Source of the DNA: Leptogranulimonas caecicola
Lineage (GTDB): Bacteria > Actinomycetota > Coriobacteriia > Coriobacteriales > Atopobiaceae
Reading direction: 5' to 3'
Assembly: GCF_023168405.1 (NCBI RefSeq)
Contig: NZ_AP025285.1
Location: 62,001 to 126,000 of the forward strand
Length of the DNA: 64,000 nt
Shown: piece by piece, positions 47,581-57,113 of the stretch
How the letters are laid out: each line of letters begins with the position of its first letter
Numbering within the stretch: the first letter of the stretch is position 1
Notes under the pieces: generated by a model
Seen by the model: only the letters and a program-made list of their open reading frames with translations
The model's database searches: none
Told to the model about the DNA's origin: nothing
Position numbers and translations under genes: made by a program

Positions 47581-48249
47581 ATGAAGTTCTTCATCGACAC
47601 CGCCGACCTCGCAGAGATCAAGACCGCCTACTCCTGGGGCTGCGTGGCAGGGGTCACCACCAACCCCTCCCTCTACGCCAAGACCGGCGGCAAGCTGGCC
47701 GACTTCGAGGCCCACATGGTAAAGATCGCCGAGGCCTGCCCCGACGTTCCGGTCTCTGCCGAGTCCACCGCCACCACCACCGAGGACATGGTGGCAGGGG
47801 GTCTGCGCCTGGCAGCCCTTGCCCCCAACATCGTGGTGAAGCTTCCCATCTGCGCTGAGTCTTTGGCCGCCACCAAGGAGCTCAAGAAGCACGGCGTCAA
47901 CGTCAACATGACCCTCATCTTCACCGTGCCCCAGGCCTTGATGGCCTGCTCTGCCGGCGCCCGCTATGTCTCCCCCTTCGTGGGCCGCTTCGACGACATC
48001 GCAGAAGACGGCATAGAGCAGCTGGCAAACATCGTGACCGCCGTGAAGAACTACTACGGCCCCGAGCACACCGAGATCATCGCCGCCTCTCTTCGCACCC
48101 CCAACCACGTGACCCAGGCGGCCCTCCTGGGTGCAGACATCGCCACGGTGCCTTTCGCCGCCATGGAGAAGTGCCTGCACCATCCTCTGACCGACCGCGG
48201 CCTGGCCGCCTTCGAGGCCGACTGGAAGAAGGTCACCTCCGCCCAGTAA
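47581..48249 (+). CDS. transaldolase-like / fructose-6-phosphate aldolase family protein
   Basis: A 222-aa protein of the small TalC/FSA family: FIDTADLAEIKTAYSWGCVAGVTTNPSL at the N-terminus, VVKLPI with the Schiff-base Lys (about 86), and YVSPFVGRFDDI. It follows deoC after 80 bases with ribosome site AAAGGAA. It is more distant from the two FSA-like proteins at 57263 and 60623 than those are from each other and, by its SPFVGR segment, is closer to true transaldolases. The donor substrate is uncertain. Confidence 0.88.
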   Translation: MKFFIDTADLAEIKTAYSWGCVAGVTTNPSLYAKTGGKLADFEAHMVKIAEACPDVPVSAESTATTTEDMVAGGLRLAALAPNIVVKLPICAESLAATKELKKHGVNVNMTLIFTVPQALMACSAGARYVSPFVGRFDDIAEDGIEQLANIVTAVKNYYGPEHTEIIAASLRTPNHVTQAALLGADIATVPFAAMEKCLHHPLTDRGLAAFEADWKKVTSAQ

Positions 48250-48323
48250 GGCGTACCCTTCGCGATCTCAGCGCCTCCAAGGCGCCCCAGCGCTCCCTGG
48301 CGCTTCCAACCTAAGGCATCGCT

Positions 48324-48368
48324 GCTCGCCCCCCTTAAGGCCTCCGGCTTTAAGGGGGGCGAGCTTTT
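48324..48368 (+). terminator. terminator of the PTS-transketolase group
   Basis: GCTCGCCCCCCTTAA (48324-48338) and its exact complement (48350-48364) form a 15-bp stem; TTTTCTCGGCA follows, carrying the recurrent word. Confidence 0.92.
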
Positions 48369-48469
48369 CTCGGCAACGGGAGTATCTTAGGGGTGTCTGG
48401 CGGCTTCTCAACATAGCGCCTTAGAAAAGCCGCTTCGCAAAACCCTGCTAAAAAGCTACGCCCACCTAT

Positions 48470-48664
48470 CCCGCTACATCTCGGGGTGTAGCGGGCTTTT
48501 AGGAGGCACCCGGACATACCCCAGGGGTGTTACTGGATGGTTGGCAAAATACCTCTAGGGTGTAGCCGGTTTTGCGTGAATGTGGGCGCGTTTTCGCGGT
48601 TACACCATGGTGGTGTAACCGGGTGTCCCAAAAAACGCAGTCATACCCAGGTGGTGTGACCGGG
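48470..48664. repeat. cluster of five related palindromes, family D
   Basis: Five degenerate copies of a TACACC/GGTGTA palindrome lie 35-60 bases apart: 48470-48495 (CCCGCTACA ... TGTAGCGGG), 48508-48536, 48545-48574 (CAAAAtACC ... GGTTTTG), 48597-48621 (perfect, arms CGGTTACACCA) and 48642-48664. They fill the gap between convergent transcription units; no gene is present. Confidence 0.85.
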
Positions 48665-48729
48665 TAGCTGTCGGGATCCTAAGTGCGCACCCAACGTATT
48701 CCGCGCGAGCCGCCCAGCGTTACAACAGC

Positions 48730-50004
48730 TCAGTATCCCAACCCTTGGAGCACGAACATCACAATGGTGAGGATGATGATGACCGCAATGGTGGCCCAGG
48801 TGATGGCGGTCCAGAGGTGGCCGTTGACGTAGCGGCCCATGATGCGCTTGTCGGACGCGATGATTACCATGTAGATCATGAGCACGGGCAACAGCACGCC
48901 GTTGACCACCTGGGCGGCCATCATGATGCCAAAGAGATCAATGTGGGGGATGAGCACCACTCCGGCGGAGAGCACGATGATGGCGGTGATGATGCCGCGG
49001 TAGACGGGGGCCTCGCTCCAACCGTGGTCGGCACCGTGCTCCCAGCCAAAGGCTTCGCAGATGGCGCTGGAAGTGATGCCGGGAAGCACCGCGGCGGCCA
49101 GCAGAGAAGCGCCTACCAAACCCAAGCCAAAGAGGCGCTCGGCGTAGGGGCCTGCGATGGGGGCAAGCGCCTGGGCGGCCTGGGCGGCGTCATCCACTGC
49201 TACCCCCGCAGGGTGCAGCGTCACGCCGGTGGCCATGATGATGAACCATGAAATGATCGACGCCAGGATGGCGCCGGTGGCGGTGTCGATGCGCTGGTAG
49301 GGGATCTCGTCGGCGCCTACATTTTTGTCGACCACGTTGGACTCGGCCAAGAAGATCATCCAGGGCGCGATGGTGGTGCCGATGTTTGCCACCAGCAGGC
49401 TCAGGTATTCGGGCGTGGGGGTGATGCGCGGGATGACGGTGGCGTTCAGGGCGTCGGCCCAGTTGGGCTGCACCATAAATCCTGCGACCACATAGGCGAT
49501 GAACACGCAGCATATGGCCAAAAGCACTTTTTCGATGCGCTTGTAGCTGCCGCTCATGGTGAGCAGCCAGATGACGATGGCGGCGATGGGCACCGAGATG
49601 GGCGCTGGAATGCCAAAGAGCGACATGCCAGAGGCGATGCCTGCGAACTCGGAGAGGGTCACCATGGTGTTGGAGACCAGCAGGGCCAGCATTGCGAATG
49701 CCGATAAGCGCACCCCAAATTGCTCGCGAATCAAGCTGGCGAAGCCCTTGCCGGTGACACAGCCCATGCGGGCAGCTGTCTCTTGGACCACGATCATCAA
49801 GAATCCCATGATGGGCACGGTCCACAGCTGGCCAAAGCCAAAGAGCGCGCCGGCGTTGGAGTAGGTGGCGATGCCGCCGGCGTCGGTGCCGGAGAGGGCG
49901 GCGATGAGGCCCGGGCCCATGGCGGCAAGCACCGTGAGCAGGCGCATCTTGCGCTTTTGAGCAGGGGCTTGCGGGGTAGTGGGGGTGTTCTTCTCGGTAG
50001 CCAT
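48730..50004 (-). CDS. NRAMP-related transporter, Mg-type (NRMT) candidate
   Basis: A 424-aa member of the SLC11/NRAMP fold with about 11 membrane segments. The transition-metal site is altered: in helix 1 the canonical DPGN reads DAGG, and in helix 6 the canonical MPH reads APW, so the coordinating Asn and Met are Gly and Ala. These are the changes I recall for the magnesium-transporting NRMT branch described from Eggerthella lenta. The stop of an MgtE-like gene is only two bases upstream, giving a Mg-linked operon. A Mn or Fe importer is the alternative but lacks the key Met. Confidence 0.82.
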   Translation of the reverse strand: MATEKNTPTTPQAPAQKRKMRLLTVLAAMGPGLIAALSGTDAGGIATYSNAGALFGFGQLWTVPIMGFLMIVVQETAARMGCVTGKGFASLIREQFGVRLSAFAMLALLVSNTMVTLSEFAGIASGMSLFGIPAPISVPIAAIVIWLLTMSGSYKRIEKVLLAICCVFIAYVVAGFMVQPNWADALNATVIPRITPTPEYLSLLVANIGTTIAPWMIFLAESNVVDKNVGADEIPYQRIDTATGAILASIISWFIIMATGVTLHPAGVAVDDAAQAAQALAPIAGPYAERLFGLGLVGASLLAAAVLPGITSSAICEAFGWEHGADHGWSEAPVYRGIITAIIVLSAGVVLIPHIDLFGIMMAAQVVNGVLLPVLMIYMVIIASDKRIMGRYVNGHLWTAITWATIAVIIILTIVMFVLQGLGY

Positions 50005-50006
50005 AG

Positions 50007-51836
50007 CTAGGCGCCCATCACGAGGGCGGGCAGGCAGATGGCCATGAAGAGCACGATGGACACCGTGAGGGCCAGCAAGCGCAGCGAGAGGCGGGAGACC
50101 TCCTCGCCGTGGGCGTCCTTTTGGCGCAGATAGTGCAGGTAGAGGGGTGCGGTGCCATAGCTGATGAGGGCGGAGCCGGCAGAGGCCCAGAAGCCCGCGC
50201 TCACCGCATCAAGGGCAGCGGTGGGGGCGAACAGGCCGCCTATGCCAATGGCGAGCAGCATGACCAGCGTCAGGTAGACGAGGGCGATGCCCAGGCCACG
50301 GAAGACAAAGGAGCTGGTGGAGGGGGAGTCTTCGTCGTCGGGGTCGAACTCGATGAAGAAGCCGGTGGTGTAGCTCACCATGTCGTCGGCCATGAGGAGA
50401 CAGACGGGCAGCGCCACGGAGGCAGCTAGCGCAGCGGCTTGGATGCCTAGTGCGGAACCCGCAGCGGCCATGGCCACCACGCCGCACACCCAGAAGAAGA
50501 ACCAGAGCTGGTTTCCCAAGAGCCAGCGCAGGTCGTGGGTGGGCTTATCGGTATCGGAGTCGCTTCGGCCGCCGGCCAGCTGCAGGTCTTCCTCGTGCTC
50601 TTCTTCCAGGACGTCTAGAGCGTCGTCCACGGTGACGATGCCCACGATTTGCTGGGTCTCGGTGACCACGGGGATGGCCAGCAGGTTGTACTTGGAGATG
50701 GCCTCGGCGACGTCTTCTTGGTCGTCGTCGGGGTTGGCAGTGATGACGTCGGTCTCCATGATGGCCGAGAGCTGGGTGTCCGGCGATTCCATGAGCAGCG
50801 CGCGCAGGGTGAGCACGCCCAGCAGGCGGCGATCGTCGTCGCACACATAGATATAGTTGACGGTTTCGATGTCGTCCTCGTCCATGGTGCGGATCTTGGC
50901 AATGGCGTCGGCGATGGTGGCCGAAGGTGGCAGCGCCGCGAACTCCGAGGTCATGATGCGGCCAGCGGTATCCTCGCGATAACCCAGCAGCTGGCGGATG
51001 GCCTTCTCCTCCTTGACGCCCATGAGGCGCAGCAGGGTCTCGGCACGCTCGTAGTCCAACTCGCTCACTAGGTCCGCGGCGTCGTCCGGGTCCATCTGGG
51101 AGAGCATGCGCGAAGCCGAGGCCACGTCCATGTCATCCATGATCTCTGCGGCCATGCCGTCGTCGTCCAGCTCGGCCATGGCGTCGGCTGCCTGGGAGTC
51201 GTCCAGCTGGGCAAAGACCTGGCCGCGCAGCCGCGGGTCCAGCTGCTCGATGATGTCCGCGATGTCCGCCGGATGCATGTCGTCCAGGGTTTTATGGGAG
51301 ATGTTGAGCTGCACATCGGAAAGCTCGCGGTCCAGAAGGTCCATATAGCTCCAGGCGATGATCTTCTCGGGAATGTCGTGGCCCAGCGTGTGGGCGATCT
51401 TGGCAACCCCGCGCTCGACGGTGGGGGAGAGGTTGCGCAAGATGCCGCGGGCTCCCACCTCGGCGCCTAACAGGCGCAGCTGGGAGGAGCCGGAGTCCGA
51501 GAGCTTGAGGTCGTTCACGCGCACTACGCGCAGGCCGCGAGTATCAACGATTTGCTTGTTCATGAGGTCGCGGTTGATGAGGACCTCTTCTGGCTGTAGG
51601 TAAGAGAAGCGGATGTCTGTGGAGGGCACCTTAAGGCGCACCGTGTCGCCATCAAAGCTGTCGACATATTTGCGCCAGCTGATCATGAAGGGCGTTTTGC
51701 CGGGGCCCTGAAACGCCAGGGACGTGACCCGGGGGAACACCTCGCCTGTGGCGATGCCCAGGTCGTTCACGACGCCGATGCGCTCGCCCCCTGAATCCAG
51801 AACGGGAATGCCCAGCATCTGAGACAGATAGATCAT
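50007..51836 (-). CDS. MgtE-like protein with MgtE-N and CBS domains and an unusual membrane domain
   Basis: A 609-aa protein. The N-terminal PRC-barrel-like part (LDSGGERIGVVNDLG) is followed by an MgtE_N superhelix (about 190-310, DMHPADIADIIEQLDP, DDAADLVSEL), two CBS domains (about 315-440, GRIMTSEFAALPP, VGIVTVDDALDVLEEE), an acidic linker and about five membrane segments. The last part lacks the recognisable MgtE pore pattern. In MgtE the N and CBS domains sense cytosolic Mg2+. Start at 51836 follows AAAGGAGC. Transcribed with the NRAMP-related gene; it may be the Mg sensor or partner of that transporter. Confidence 0.8.
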   Translation of the reverse strand: MIYLSQMLGIPVLDSGGERIGVVNDLGIATGEVFPRVTSLAFQGPGKTPFMISWRKYVDSFDGDTVRLKVPSTDIRFSYLQPEEVLINRDLMNKQIVDTRGLRVVRVNDLKLSDSGSSQLRLLGAEVGARGILRNLSPTVERGVAKIAHTLGHDIPEKIIAWSYMDLLDRELSDVQLNISHKTLDDMHPADIADIIEQLDPRLRGQVFAQLDDSQAADAMAELDDDGMAAEIMDDMDVASASRMLSQMDPDDAADLVSELDYERAETLLRLMGVKEEKAIRQLLGYREDTAGRIMTSEFAALPPSATIADAIAKIRTMDEDDIETVNYIYVCDDDRRLLGVLTLRALLMESPDTQLSAIMETDVITANPDDDQEDVAEAISKYNLLAIPVVTETQQIVGIVTVDDALDVLEEEHEEDLQLAGGRSDSDTDKPTHDLRWLLGNQLWFFFWVCGVVAMAAAGSALGIQAAALAASVALPVCLLMADDMVSYTTGFFIEFDPDDEDSPSTSSFVFRGLGIALVYLTLVMLLAIGIGGLFAPTAALDAVSAGFWASAGSALISYGTAPLYLHYLRQKDAHGEEVSRLSLRLLALTVSIVLFMAICLPALVMGA

Positions 51837-51990
51837 GAAACTGCTCCTTTGCGCCCGTAGGGGCTGGTAGCGGCGCTGCCTCATGGCAGCCTGTCACACC
51901 CCTGGGGCGCGACCCGCTAAGGAGCCGGTCTCAGGGGTCATCGACTGTGCGGTCGAGGTTTCATCTAAACCCTTTCTCCTTTGATGACCC
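51837..51990 (-). promoter_or_regulatory. structured 5' leader of the MgtE-like/NRAMP operon
   Basis: The minus-strand leader holds several stems: CGAC/GTCG near 51945, an ACCGGC/GCGGGT stem nested in CCCCTG/CAGGGG (about 51897-51940), and GCTGCC-ATGA-GGCAGC near 51880. Position before a Mg operon suggests a metal-responsive riboswitch, but no M-box consensus was recognised by eye. Confidence 0.4.
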
Positions 51991-52268
51991 ACGTTTGCGC
52001 GGCGCCCGATTTGCCAGAGACGTCCGCTAAAGCGTTCCTATTCTACACGCTCTGCCCCTATGTACCCCCTCGGCTACCAGCCAACTCTGCCGACGGGCAC
52101 AACTTTTACCCGCCACTCCCTGCGTGGGGGTTACCCCTGGTCGCACTTTCTCGCGTCCCTGGACTAAACTACGATAAACTCGGATAAACTAATAGTCCTC
52201 GTAGAGCGCCATGCGCCCCTGCAGAACGTGGCATTGCATTGGCCATGCCGCCATTTCGCCCCCTCTGC

Positions 52269-52318
52269 TGCCGAGAAGCCCGCGCCCTCCTGGGCTCGTG
52301 CCCGTGGGCTTCTCGGCG
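52269..52318. repeat. inverted pair of the TGCCGAGAAG variant word, no adjoining gene end
   Basis: TGCCGAGAAG (52269-52278) and CTTCTCGGCG (52309-52318), with GCCC/GGGC inner extension, form a stem-loop. It lies in a divergent promoter gap (mgtE-like on minus, deoR-type on plus), where a terminator is not expected. The rest of 51991-52437 shows no gene. Confidence 0.7.
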
Positions 52319-52437
52319 CTCGCCATTGCTCAAGCCCCTGCCAAGAGCGCCCTTCTCCCTAGAGGTTGCAAGTCCCTGCCAAGAACCCCTCCCGGGGCAG
52401 TAGGCTGCTGCTGCCAGGGATTTTAGAAAGGACTGTC

Positions 52438-53202
52438 ATGTTTTTGAAAGAGCGCCAGGACGCTATCGCAGACCTCATCGCCCTTGAAGGCCGCGTGACC
52501 GTGGGTGAGCTGGCCCAGCTTTTTGGCGTGAGCGACGACTGCATTCGCAAGGACCTCAAAACCTTGGTAGAGCAGGGAAGGGCTCGCAAAGTCTACGGCG
52601 GCGCCATACGGCCGGAGTCGTTGGCCGACCGCATGATCATGAATCGCGTGGATATCCATGAGCCTCAGAAGCGCGCGTTGGCCCAAAAGGCTTACGAATT
52701 GGTGGAGGAGAACTCCACCATCTACCTGGATTGCTCTTCCACCAACCACTATCTGGCGGAGCTTTTGGCCACCGGCCCCAAGCCAGTTCATGTGGCTTCA
52801 AACATGATCGATGTGCTCCAAGTGTTGGCCGGTCGCGATCACCTGCAGGTCACGGGCATTGGCGGCACCGTCTCCGGCGAGCTCAACGGTTTTACAGGCC
52901 CTCAGACCCTGGCCATGCTGGAGCCCCTGCGTTTTGATGCGGCCTTTATGGGAGCGCTGGGAGTGGATCCCAAAACTGGAGATGTGACCACCTTCGATGC
53001 CGATGACGGCATGGTCAAGCGCGCCGTCCTTGCTCGCTGTCAGGCGGCCTACCTGCTCATCGACAGCTCCAAGGTGGGGGCCTGGGGCACGTTTTCCTAC
53101 GCCACTTTGGACTCCTTTGCAGGCATCGTCATGGAACCGGAGGCCAAAGAGACGGCCCGTGGCCAAGTGCTGGCCGAGCTTCAGGCCCCTCTGCTCTGGT
53201 AG
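52438..53202 (+). CDS. DeoR-family transcriptional regulator
   Basis: A 254-aa paralog of the regulator at 40913-41737: helix-turn-helix at about 5-50 (EGRVTVGELAQLFGVSDDCIRKDLKTL), ARKVYGGA hinge, and a sugar-phosphate sensor domain (YLDCSSTNHYLAELL, GFTGPQT, LIDSSKVG). ATG at 52438 follows AGAAAGGA; the longer open frame from 52366 uses TTG. Its likely target is the glycyl radical enzyme operon 660 bases downstream, though a promoter region with repeat E lies between. Confidence 0.9.
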   Translation: MFLKERQDAIADLIALEGRVTVGELAQLFGVSDDCIRKDLKTLVEQGRARKVYGGAIRPESLADRMIMNRVDIHEPQKRALAQKAYELVEENSTIYLDCSSTNHYLAELLATGPKPVHVASNMIDVLQVLAGRDHLQVTGIGGTVSGELNGFTGPQTLAMLEPLRFDAAFMGALGVDPKTGDVTTFDADDGMVKRAVLARCQAAYLLIDSSKVGAWGTFSYATLDSFAGIVMEPEAKETARGQVLAELQAPLLW

Positions 53203-53446: not shown

Positions 53447-53860
53447 TGGGCGCCCAGAGACAGCAACTCAACAGCCCGGCGCCCGCAACCTGACAACCTA
53501 GCGACGGCAACTCAGCAGCCCAGCGACGGACCCTTCCTGGCTCCCGCGCGCCGCTCAACCCTCCTTCCCAGTCATTCGTGGAGAAAACGAGACGAATTGG
53601 GCGAAAATACGACAAAATAATAGCAAGCGCAGTCCAACTGCGATAGAATCAGAGCCAGTAGGGGGGGCTTCTCGGCATCCCCGCCGCGTCGGTGCTCGCC
53701 GCATCGGCATCCCGCCGCACCGGACCCCCAGTGGCCCCGCCGCTTAGGCACCTCACAGGCTCACCGCGCCGGACCGCCATAGGTGTCCGCCGCGAGAGCG
53801 GCGCGCCCTGCGGCCCTGCTGCAAAACCCAAGGTACATCCCAACGCAACTCGGAGGCGCC

Positions 53861-56161
53861 ATGCTCACCCCGCGCACGCAAGCCATCAAAGACAGCCTAT
53901 TTGCCAAGTCTCGCGTCATCGACCTGGAGCGCGCCCTGCTCTATCAGGAGAGCTATGAGCAGACCCAGGGCGAGCCGGCCATCCTGTGCCGTGCAAAAGC
54001 GCTGGTGCATCTGCTGGAGAACCACGAGATCGTCATCGACGAGCACGACCTGTTCGCAGGCAACCGCACCCGCGAGCCCCGCGCCGGCGTGCTGTCGCCC
54101 GAGATGAGCCCCTACTGGATCCTGGACGAGCTGGATCAGTTCCCCGTGCGCCCGCAGGACCGCTTCGAGATGTCTGAAGCCGATAAAACCCTCTATCGCG
54201 ACCAGGTCTATCCCTTCTGGGCCGGGCAGAGCTTGAACGATTGGTATCGCGCGCACTTGGACCCCCAGGTGGCAGAGGCGCAGACCACCAAGGTGTTCGC
54301 GGTGGCCCAAACCGACAAGGGCCAAGGCCATATCATCCCCAACTTCCCAGTGCTCATGGAGCGCGGTTGGGCGGCGCTGCTGGAGGATGCAAGGCAGCAG
54401 CTGGCATCCCAGCCTGACAACCTGTTCTACCAGGCAGCGGTCATCGTCCTTGAGGGCACCATCGCCTACATCCGCCGCTACGAGTTCATCTGTCGCGACA
54501 AAGCCCAAGACCCTGCCACCTCGCCGGAGCGCGCACAAGAGCTGCAAGAGATGGCCGATATTCTCGGTAACTTGGCGCAGCGTGCCCCCCAAGACTTCCG
54601 TGAGGGCCTCCAGCAGCTCTGGCTGGCCGAGCTGGTCTGCGAGCACGAGTCCAACGCAAGCTCCATCTCGCTGGGCCGGGTGGACCAGTACCTCTGGCCG
54701 CTCTATCAGGCCTCCAAAGCCGCGGGCACAAGCGACGAGACCATCCGCGAGTGGCTCCAGGACTTCTACCTCAAGTGCAACACCATCGTGTTCGCCCGTT
54801 CCACGGAGAGCGCCAAGTTCTTCGCCGGATTCCCCTCGGGCCTCAACATCGTGGTGGGCGGCGTGGACGCGATGGGCCAGGATGCCACCAACGAGCTCTC
54901 CAGCCTGCTGTTAGACGTGCAAAACGACACCCGCCTGCCCCAGCCCAACCTCTCGCTGCGCATGCATGCCCAAACGCCGGCGTCGCTGCTTCATGAGGCG
55001 GCCCAGGTCATCCGCCTGGGCGACGGCATGCCCCAGGTCTTCAACGACGAGGTCAACATCCTGTCCTTCGTGAACCGCGGCATCTCGCTGGAGGACGCCC
55101 GCGACTACGGCGTGGTGGGGTGCGTAGAACTCTCCATCCCCGGCGCCATGTACGGCCTGCACGACATCTCCATGTTCAATATGGTGCGCTGCCTGGAGAT
55201 CGCCCTGCACGAGAACCCCCAGGGCTTCGCCACCTTCGACGAGCTCATCGACGCTACCGAGAAGGTCATCGACCGCTACGTGGGGCTCATGGTTCGCGGG
55301 TGCAACACCTGCGACGAGGCTCACGCCGCCACCTCTCCCACGCCGCTGCTCTCCTGCCTCATCAACGACTGCATGGAAAACGGGCAAGACCTCACTGCCG
55401 GCGGCGCGCGCTACAACCCCTCCGGCGTCCAGGGCGTGGGCACCGCTAACCTGGCAGACTCTTTGGAGGTCATCCGCCAGGCGGTCTTCGAGGAGCAGCT
55501 GCTCACCTTGCCCCAGCTCGTCGCCATGCTGGACCGCGACTGGACCGGCGAGGGCGACGAGGTCTGGCGCCAGCGCTTCATCAACCGCTATCCCAAGTAC
55601 GGCAACGACGTGGACCAGGTAGACGAGCTGGGCGCCCGCCTGCTCTCCCACTACGGCCACGAGGTGGCCGGCTACACCAATCCCCGCGGCGGCCACTTCC
55701 AGCCGGGTTCCTACACCGTGAGCGCCCACATCCCGCTGGGCGAGGCCTGCGGCGCCACCCCCGACGGCCGCCATGCCCACGAGCAGCTGGCCGACGGCGG
55801 CCTTTCCCCCATGGTGGGCCGCGACACCAACGGCCCCACGGCAAGCCTGCGCTCGGTGTCCAAGCTGGACAACGCGCTGGATTCCAACGGGTCCCTGCTC
55901 AACGTCAAGTTCTCCCCGGCCACTCTAGCCGGCGAGGAGGGCCTGGCCAAGATGGCCGCCTACCTCAAGGCCTTCTCGCGCTACAAGATCCAGCACATCC
56001 AGTTCAACGTGGTTGACCGCGCCACCCTCCTGGACGCCCAGAAGCATCCCGAGAACCACAAAGACCTGGTGGTGCGCGTCGCCGGCTACTCCGCCATGTT
56101 CGTGGAGCTGGCCCGCGGCATCCAGGACGACATCATCAACCGGAGCGAGCATGTGCTCTAA
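53861..56161 (+). CDS. glycyl radical enzyme, PflD/YbiW-like
   Basis: A 766-aa glycyl radical enzyme. The active-site Cys is in VVGCVELSIPG (about residue 425), with the single-Cys GCVE pattern of lyases/dehydratases rather than the double Cys of pyruvate formate-lyase. The C-terminal RVAGYSAMF carries the radical Gly. ATG at 53861 follows CGGAGG. Its activase overlaps its 3' end and an FSA-type aldolase follows. That trio, also known next to E. coli PflD, suggests a sugar-phosphate substrate; I recall recent work assigning such enzymes to 1,5-anhydroglucitol-6-phosphate. The substrate is not proven by the sequence. Confidence 0.88.
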   Translation: MLTPRTQAIKDSLFAKSRVIDLERALLYQESYEQTQGEPAILCRAKALVHLLENHEIVIDEHDLFAGNRTREPRAGVLSPEMSPYWILDELDQFPVRPQDRFEMSEADKTLYRDQVYPFWAGQSLNDWYRAHLDPQVAEAQTTKVFAVAQTDKGQGHIIPNFPVLMERGWAALLEDARQQLASQPDNLFYQAAVIVLEGTIAYIRRYEFICRDKAQDPATSPERAQELQEMADILGNLAQRAPQDFREGLQQLWLAELVCEHESNASSISLGRVDQYLWPLYQASKAAGTSDETIREWLQDFYLKCNTIVFARSTESAKFFAGFPSGLNIVVGGVDAMGQDATNELSSLLLDVQNDTRLPQPNLSLRMHAQTPASLLHEAAQVIRLGDGMPQVFNDEVNILSFVNRGISLEDARDYGVVGCVELSIPGAMYGLHDISMFNMVRCLEIALHENPQGFATFDELIDATEKVIDRYVGLMVRGCNTCDEAHAATSPTPLLSCLINDCMENGQDLTAGGARYNPSGVQGVGTANLADSLEVIRQAVFEEQLLTLPQLVAMLDRDWTGEGDEVWRQRFINRYPKYGNDVDQVDELGARLLSHYGHEVAGYTNPRGGHFQPGSYTVSAHIPLGEACGATPDGRHAHEQLADGGLSPMVGRDTNGPTASLRSVSKLDNALDSNGSLLNVKFSPATLAGEEGLAKMAAYLKAFSRYKIQHIQFNVVDRATLLDAQKHPENHKDLVVRVAGYSAMFVELARGIQDDIINRSEHVL

Positions 56162-57113
56162 GCCCGTGTTCGCAACCCCTGCCGCCCCCCGCAGCTCGCA
56201 GGCAGATCCCAACATTCCCCCAGCTCCCGCACCCTCTGTGCCCCAAGCTGCCGAGAAGCCCGCCTACCTCACTGCCCCCATCACCAATGTGCAGCGCTAC
56301 TCCCTGCACGACGGCGGCGGCATCCGCACCACGGTCTTCTTGAAGGGCTGCCCCTTCAAGTGCCCCTGGTGCTGCAACCCCGAGAACCTCTCGAGCACGC
56401 CCGAGGTCTCCTTCAAGGAGTCCCTCTGCATGGGCTGCACCCCCAAAGCCCCAGGCGAAAGGCTCTGCTCCACCCCGCCCGAGCTCTGTCCCACCGGCGC
56501 CAAGACGCTCTTGGGCGTGCCGCGCACACCGGAGGACATGGCTCAGGAGGTGCTGCGCGACGCCGTGCTCTTCGAGGAGTCTGACGGCGGCGTCACTGCC
56601 TCCGGCGGAGAGGCGCTGCTCTGGGCAGACTGGCTTGTCGCCTTCTTTGGCCGCATCAAAAAGGCGGCCATGAAGACGGCCCTGGAGACCACGCTGGCGG
56701 TGAAGGCGCCACGCCTCCAAGACCTCGCCATTGTCTGCGACCTCTGGCTGGTAGACTTCAAGATCGCAGACCAACAGCGCTCCCTGGACCTCATTGGCGT
56801 CGACCCTCAGATCCGCGACGCCCAGCTCCAGGAGCTTTTGGCAAGCGGGGCGCGGGTGGTGGCGCGCATGCCCATCATCCCAAGGTTCACCGACGACCCC
56901 GCCAATGTGGCCGCCAACCTGGACCGTATTCGCGAGCTGGGCATCGGCCGAGTGGACATCCTGCCCTTCCATCAGCTGGGCAGCGGCAAGTACGACGCCG
57001 TAGGGCGCTCCTATGGCCTGGGAGACCTGGCCGCCCTCACAGACGACCAGGTGGCCTGGATTGTGGAGGAAGCGTCTAAAAGAGGGCTCAAAGCAACCCT
57101 CCACGGCGAATAA
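56151..57113 (+). CDS. glycyl radical enzyme activase (radical SAM)
   Basis: A 320-aa radical SAM enzyme that installs the glycyl radical on the preceding enzyme. The cluster motif CPFKCPWC (CX3CX2C) follows GGGIRTTVFLKG, and TASGGEALL is the SAM-binding GGE. A shortened Cys-bearing insert (SLCMGC, ELCPTGA) may hold one auxiliary cluster where relatives have two. ATG at 56151 lies within the GRE gene, overlapping it by 11 bases, with GGAG upstream. A Pro/Ala-rich extension of about 40 residues precedes the core, which is unusual. Confidence 0.9.
   Translation: MCSKPVFATPAAPRSSQADPNIPPAPAPSVPQAAEKPAYLTAPITNVQRYSLHDGGGIRTTVFLKGCPFKCPWCCNPENLSSTPEVSFKESLCMGCTPKAPGERLCSTPPELCPTGAKTLLGVPRTPEDMAQEVLRDAVLFEESDGGVTASGGEALLWADWLVAFFGRIKKAAMKTALETTLAVKAPRLQDLAIVCDLWLVDFKIADQQRSLDLIGVDPQIRDAQLQELLASGARVVARMPIIPRFTDDPANVAANLDRIRELGIGRVDILPFHQLGSGKYDAVGRSYGLGDLAALTDDQVAWIVEEASKRGLKATLHGE

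Follow-up and report, generated by a model that had tools for sequence, protein, structure and literature searches.

Magnesium transporters related to the NRAMP family (NrmT, or NRMT) have been described whose genes mostly adjoin a gene for a homologue of the cytosolic domain of the MgtE channel, with co-transcription behind an M-box; in the sections cited here, feedback regulation was speculated on and the role of the MgtE fragment beside the transporter was left open in 2014 (Shin et al. 2014, PMC4072509). EleNRMT of Eggerthella lenta (7qia), characterised as a purified protein, carries Mg2+ and Mn2+, not Ca2+, without proton coupling, and DxxG-TxxA/T is the motif that the cited part of the report gives for NRMTs (PMC8806188). 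At the RNA level, Salmonella mgtQ is an open reading frame (ORF) of 8 residues flanked by two genes of its operon, with ribosome-destabilising acidic codons, alternative stem-loops and a ribosome-binding site occluded by pairing, according to the cited excerpt (PMC8092293). Here we analyse a 64,000-nucleotide stretch of the Leptogranulimonas caecicola genome (contig NZ_AP025285.1, positions 62,001 to 126,000; “the window”, to which all coordinates refer), which holds an NRMT-type gene, a partner gene with MgtE modules directly ahead of it and an eight-codon leader ORF ahead of both. The pair and the feedback-sensor idea are already known from 2014; what is new is the partner's apparently decayed MgtE domain and, to a greater degree, the leader ORF.

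48730..50004, minus strand: NRMT-type NRAMP transporter gene, 424 amino acids, with DAGG and TTIAPW
50007..51836, minus strand: partner gene, 609 amino acids, with PRC, MgtE_N, a CBS pair and a five-helix membrane domain
51844..51850, minus strand: partner Shine-Dalgarno AAAGGAG, paired in the predicted leader fold
51919..51926, minus strand: anti-Shine-Dalgarno GGCTCCTT, 11-18 nt past the leader stop
51938..51964, minus strand: leader ORF ATGAAACCTCGACCGCACAGTCGATGA, eight codons for MKPRPHSR and a stop, upstream of the partner
51970..51982, minus strand: AAAGGAGAAAGGG, purine-rich stretch serving the leader ORF as ribosome-binding site
51983..51990, minus strand: 5′ arm of hairpin H1, GGGTCATC
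51935..51942, minus strand: 3′ arm of hairpin H1, GATGACCC, spanning the leader stop codon
51932..51938, minus strand: ACCCCTG, which may form the 5′ arm of an alternative hairpin H2 (weakly supported) and shares bases with the H1 3′ arm
51898..51904, minus strand: 3′ arm of possible hairpin H2, CAGGGGT
52040..52045, minus strand: TAGAAT, a hexamer resembling a -10 box, some 75 nt upstream of the leader ORF

On balance we favour reading this locus as an Mg2+ uptake operon with an NRMT importer, a pore-less MgtE-derived sensor partner and a translated leader that acts as an attenuator. The gene identities, the pairing, the pore loss, the conserved leader ORF and its Shine-Dalgarno complementarity were computed here. 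NRMT would be the Mg2+ importer of the operon, and the partner would most likely sense cytosolic Mg2+ beside NRMT and restrain it when Mg2+ is plentiful; sensor-gated uptake by the pair, as the original prediction had proposed, is plausible. By default, RNA downstream of the MKPRPHSR stop would pair with the partner's Shine-Dalgarno and block the site; a ribosome held back towards the end of the leader, at its rare CGA and AGT codons or at its stop, would cover the anti-Shine-Dalgarno and free the Shine-Dalgarno. Low Mg2+ may be what holds the ribosome, a suggestion that follows from the operon's presumed role in Mg2+ uptake and from the tandem M-box in relatives.

The leader ORF recurs throughout the Coriobacteriia sampled: a regular expression for it matched 130 of 136 upstream regions, and the remaining six hold variants recognised by eye, namely MKPRPVSR (L010, L012 and second copies in the same genomes, L191 and L190), MKVRKHNNR (L066) and MKPRPCRLIR (L169), each ending at its stop like all peptides given here. 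After 20 identical segments were dropped from the 130, 110 distinct ones remained. The form is MKPRPHSR in Atopobiaceae, MKSKPRPHSR in Coriobacteriaceae, MKVRKSKPHSK in the presumed Eggerthellaceae, and MNEHPHSN and others in other Coriobacteriales metagenome-assembled genomes; the ending P[HY]S plus zero to two residues before the stop occurs in 98/110 distinct upstream regions, compared with 14/2200 mononucleotide-shuffled ones. Length ranges from 6 to 14 codons and the start may be ATG, GTG or TTG, with the purine-rich stretch, start and stop kept in frame. Among 33 distinct 24-mers, synonymous codon changes outnumber the others 37 to 16 in frame 0, and the ratio is turned round in the other two frames (8:46 and 4:57). 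Furthermore, -10-like hexamers precede 59/110 leaders (138/2200 when shuffled). The leader ORF was missed in the first reading of the window, and no report of a leader of this kind in Coriobacteriia was found in the open-access literature, subscription papers being mostly beyond that search.

In the genomes searched, the leader patterns also keep to this operon, apart from one match at a contig end. The Coriobacteriales pattern occurs once per genome in 51/149 order genomes, in all 51 directly before the partner (51-167 nt), and a reversed control gave no match. Behind the M-box of deep lineages we found a version of 6 or 7 codons (for instance MTPSSP or MKPHSP) in 32/33 distinct segments, compared with 18/1650 shuffled; two of the 35 M-box segments were duplicates and were dropped, and one segment (L074) had no such ORF. 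The pattern of these lineages occurs once each in 27/149 class genomes, 25 of them 75-102 nt before the partner, with the other two before the operon that has NRMT first (G105) and at a contig end (G103). The idea that the leader ORF is a novelty of Coriobacteriales was dropped, the leader also being found behind the M-box in deep lineages. No leader ORF with P-x-S was found in 19 loci of other Actinomycetota, where a loose pattern matched ORFs in four (L211, L215, L217, L218). In nine window ORFs, CGA is 1/159 Arg codons (tied with AGA) and AGT 2/195 Ser codons, the rarest for each amino acid; both are almost fixed in the leader, and slow decoding is therefore a likely handle.

The window leader has a predicted fold with a z-score of -4.17, in which GGCTCCTT pairs with the partner's AAAGGAG, so that the downstream ribosome-binding site would be occluded in the predicted structure as described for an mgtQ-type leader ORF. 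Across the 110 leaders, the duplex between the post-stop segment and the Shine-Dalgarno region averages -22.9 kcal/mol for a leader's own sequences, -19.4 when the Shine-Dalgarno region is swapped for that of another species and -16.6 after shuffling; the own duplex is better than the mean of swaps within the family in 82/110 (p 2.7e-8) and than the shuffle mean in 107/110. M-box lineages give corresponding means of -29.3, -27.2 and -23.3, with the own duplex ahead of the swap mean in 23/32 (p 0.004). Hairpin H1, over the leader start and stop, has 86.8 per cent of its cells paired compared with 15-55 when slid, and its covariation score lies above all 500 shuffles; H2 is weak, with 7 or more pairs in 61/82 compared with 44 per cent in controls. 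Several of these measures weigh against the attenuator: the own anti-Shine-Dalgarno duplex beats every sampled swap in only 20/110, a +3 slide of H1 has a higher covariation score (0.161 vs 0.143), shuffles reach the H1 count of pairs changed on both sides in 107/500 and that of pair types in 268/500 (two of five measures), and H1 is uneven, with 7 or more pairs in 44/82 (20 per cent in controls). By analogy, we nonetheless read the leader as a translational attenuator on an Mg2+ operon, mgtQ-like without the acidic residues. Salmonella mgtQ is its closest analogue, an 8-residue ORF before an Mg2+ transporter gene with alternative stem-loops and a ribosome-binding site occluded by pairing; MKPRPHSR differs in having no Asp or Glu, in its phylum and in not lying between operon genes, and the likeness is one of description as far as the cited excerpt goes (PMC8092293).

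The partner gene starts with an ATG preceded by AAAGGAG, and two bases separate its stop from the NRMT start. Its modules are as follows.

51627..51836, minus strand: PRC-barrel, partner residues 1-70
50970..51278, minus strand: MgtE_N, residues 187-289; D251 and D255 correspond to TtMgtE D91 and D95
50604..50969, minus strand: CBS pair, approximately residues 290-411, with D372, E374, D405 and D408 corresponding to TtMgtE D214, E216, D247 and D250
50010..50591, minus strand: membrane domain, most likely a decayed MgtE domain, residues 416-609, with LMADDMVSYTTG at the canonical GGNxGxQ stretch and L590 at the D432 position

The MgtE_N, CBS and PRC-barrel modules claimed by the original prediction are confirmed by Pfam matches (E values of 2e-24, 1.1e-21 and 4.5e-5, respectively). 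We take the Mg2+ sites of TtMgtE to comprise D91, D95, D214, E216, D247, D250, E255, E258, residue 259, E59, G136, A223 and D226; on this list the partner is identical at the first nine positions, has D for E59 and is changed at G136, A223 and D226. The pore is another matter. Assuming, as we do, that Asp432 and GGNxGxQ have their usual roles in the MgtE pore, the motif is lost, with leucine in place of the aspartate and LMADDMVSYTTG in place of GGNxGxQ.

A Pfam search gave no match for the membrane part of the partner in the window, which the original prediction had described as a different five-helix part. Sequence profiles and a structure model make it most likely a diverged MgtE domain instead, and the candidate of a new fold was rejected, since the intermediates and the model of the domain alone point to MgtE. 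Six partner ORFs in deeper Coriobacteriia pass the PF01769 cut-off; hhalign gives 99.2 per cent between the window's clade (34 sequences) and the deeper partners (36) and 97.1 per cent between these and canonical MgtE (10), with controls at no more than 2.4 per cent (reversed) and 0.2 (NRMT). Folded alone, the membrane domain reaches a pLDDT (predicted local distance difference test) of 91.4, and the five best structural rows for it are all MgtE (Z 11.1-12.8, root-mean-square deviation 4.5-4.7, 168-176 of 194 residues aligned), the next being a designed helical protein (Z 10.5). In the model of the whole protein, MgtE aligns over 182-609 (Z 18.9, root-mean-square deviation 12.4), and the results of the whole-model search are largely CBS domains. 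This descent has points against it: hhalign run directly between the window's clade and canonical MgtE falls short of significance (0.5 per cent, E 0.12), the structure-search tool cautions that Z values below roughly 13 may be frequent among helical bundles, and Foldseek ranks MgtE first at E values that are not significant (0.09-0.16). The profile chain, the fold, the kept sensor acids and the lost pore Asp together lead us to regard the membrane part as most likely a decayed MgtE membrane domain, and the partner as most likely descended from an MgtE channel, with the sensor retained and the pore gone. It would share MgtE_N, CBS, the linker acids and the five-helix fold with the MgtE channel (TtMgtE, PDB 2yvx, 5x9h, 4u9n), from which it differs in lacking the pore Asp and GGNxGxQ and in its added PRC barrel.

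The membrane part is still more reduced in some relatives. Eggerthellaceae copies (n=4; a family assignment made from the NRMT of one locus, L069, which matches EleNRMT at E 5.6e-247) end in a single hydrophobic stretch, and copies from two genomes of one genus (n=2; L077, L078) have none. In the latter genomes, which have no NRMT match, the soluble PRC-MgtE_N-CBS partner directly follows a gene for an MgtA-type Mg2+ ATPase, one of full length and one an edge fragment. This graded series of partners (five-helix, one-stretch and soluble, with NRMT or MgtA) provides natural test cases for the role of the MgtE fragment. Nine loci from other Actinomycetota (L203-L207, L211, L213, L214, L218) hold partner-like genes with an MgtE-like membrane part, without GGNxGxQ by eye, and with no NRMT in the fetched flanks.

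The transporter itself is an NRMT and, among PDB sequences, its closest relative is EleNRMT (E 1.9e-145; the next chain has E 2.2e-28), not MntH. The DAGG and APW substitutions noted by the original prediction are present, as D41-A-G-G44 and T-T-I-A-P-W, and they fit the DxxG-TxxA/T signature, a binding-site motif common to EleNRMT (PMC8806188, as cited). The Mg-type assignment is likewise supported, by family membership as judged from sequence, by the M-boxes of relatives and by the MgtA-type pump that replaces NRMT in two genomes. The near relatives of EleNRMT have partners with one hydrophobic stretch only, and EleNRMT was characterised alone in the account cited (PMC8806188).

The pairing of NRMT and partner is not due to chance, and the condition under which the original prediction would have failed, a lack of co-occurrence in other genomes, is excluded. 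Among 149 Coriobacteriia genomes, NRMT is found in 116, the PRC-type partner in 123 (matches starting at query residue 1-3 plus the edge fragments in G133 and G137, chosen by eye) and both in 115; in 114/115 they are neighbours on the same strand, 113 with the partner leading and one (G105) with NRMT leading. The 115th genome (G049) has a partner match split in two, the nearer piece adjoining NRMT. When the partner alone was used to fetch loci, NRMT followed it on the same strand in 80/80 (the top-ranking 80 of 556 confirmed stretches); adjacency in a further 74/74 loci, preselected for both genes, was not used as evidence. The locus is like the NrmT pairs in that an NRAMP-related Mg2+ transporter adjoins an MgtE-cytosolic-domain gene, there often behind an M-box, and unlike them, as far as the cited sections tell, in the PRC barrel and probably decayed five-helix MgtE domain of its partner, its conserved leader ORF and the lack of any M-box found (PMC4072509). 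Partner-like genes with a membrane part and no adjoining NRMT were seen in L081, L083, G008, G011, G020 (g34) and G038 (g48); the last four genomes, which are incomplete, have no NRMT, canonical MgtE or CorA match.

The surroundings of the operon in relatives fit a role in Mg2+ uptake. Scans of a subset of the fetched loci (55, 40 and 19 loci, plus the window) found an M-box (RF00380) before the operon in 35/55 (2/15, 19/20 and 14/20; 33 distinct), chiefly in deep lineages, and in 4/19 from outside Coriobacteriia; none was found in 40 further Coriobacteriales loci from Atopobiaceae, Coriobacteriaceae and Eggerthellaceae (38 genomes). An M-box riboswitch at the window operon was rejected, as neither a gathering search of the whole window nor a permissive one of 48200-52500 matched. 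The ancestor probably had both M-box and leader ORF, because the leader ORF also stands behind the M-box in deep lineages, with loss of the M-box toward the three families just named. NRMT and canonical MgtE rarely coexist in Coriobacteriia genomes: canonical MgtE (matches of 79 bits or more, genome list chosen by eye) is found in 3/116 NRMT genomes and in 16/33 others (Fisher 6e-10, kinship ignored). The host genome (2.0 Mb, one contig) has one match each for NRAMP, MgtE_N and CorA, and the MgtE membrane model PF01769 matches neither this genome nor the window's partner protein.

The reading of the locus as an Mg2+ operon has facts set against it. The window lacks an M-box match, EleNRMT transports Mn2+ as well and was studied in the absence of a partner (PMC8806188, as cited), and a relative in Acidobacterium with a like neighbour acted mainly as a Mn2+ transporter, whose rescue was no better on co-expression of the partial-MgtE gene in this single pair tried (A. 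capsulatum; cited sections of PMC4072509). The partner also occurs without NRMT, in 7 Coriobacteriia genomes plus one contig-edge fragment and in 9/19 loci from beyond Coriobacteriia, of which one is truncated at its contig end. A main role for this NRMT in importing Mn2+ or some other transition metal, as the two transport results would allow, is nevertheless improbable given its DxxG-TxxA site, its best match to EleNRMT, the M-box operons of relatives and the MgtA found in NRMT's place. Still less probable is a partner that works as a channel and imports Mg2+ itself: its predicted fold is similar, its sensor residues are kept, and three genomes (G008, G011, G020; 82-94 per cent complete) have a partner without NRMT, canonical MgtE or a CorA match, against which stand the replaced pore Asp and GGNxGxQ and the copies with one hydrophobic stretch or none.

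For the leader, a signal other than Mg2+ is the alternative to which we give most weight, doubtful as it is: charged tRNA for the rare Arg and Ser codons, the supply of Pro or His, or general translation stress. Conserved Pro beside rare CGA and AGT would suit it, and Salmonella mgtM and mgtP are described in the cited excerpt as responding to ATP and charged tRNA-Pro (PMC8092293), whereas every match of the leader patterns in the searched genomes, bar one at a contig end, stands ahead of the Mg2+ operon, and a leader form follows nearly every distinct M-box segment. It is rather unlikely that the leader is conserved as a structured RNA, a ligand- or protein-binding hairpin in which the short ORF is incidental. 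The CGA and AGT codons barely vary, which also allows constraint at the RNA level and counts against a translated signal, and in M-box lineages H1, whose arms enclose the ORF, is stronger with own than with swapped sequences (-11.5 vs -9.8 kcal/mol, own better in 30/32); on the other side, the purine-rich stretch and the in-frame start and stop are kept through all changes of length and start codon, and only in frame 0 do synonymous changes prevail. We keep to the translated attenuator, a small system in which a signal read by the ribosome seems to replace a riboswitch on the same operon. Tentatively, and with less confidence than in the operon itself, we suggest that Coriobacteriia possess a ribosome-based Mg2+ sensor that uses an ultrashort rare-codon leader (MxPxSP to MKPRPHSR) and may have arisen independently of enterobacterial mgtL/mgtQ; it would at first have stood in tandem with the M-box and, once that was lost, alone in Coriobacteriales, with the MgtE-derived, non-conducting sensor subunit of NRMT as a second regulator.

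Named relatives that match the partner best come mostly from Atopobiaceae. One contig titled Alloscardovia omnicolens, a bifidobacterial name, holds the whole pair and the degenerate leader MKPRPCRLIR (L169 4001-7189, NZ_ATVB01000014.1), which may reflect transfer or a mislabelled contig. In the window, two copies of GGGTGTAGC[CG]GG lie at 48484-48573, between an aldolase-like gene and the NRMT end, with looser similar pieces nearby by eye; the repeats after NRMT form one two-copy family. At 53783-57113, a glycyl-radical-enzyme-like ORF is followed by an activating-enzyme-like ORF, both labelled from reading the sequence.

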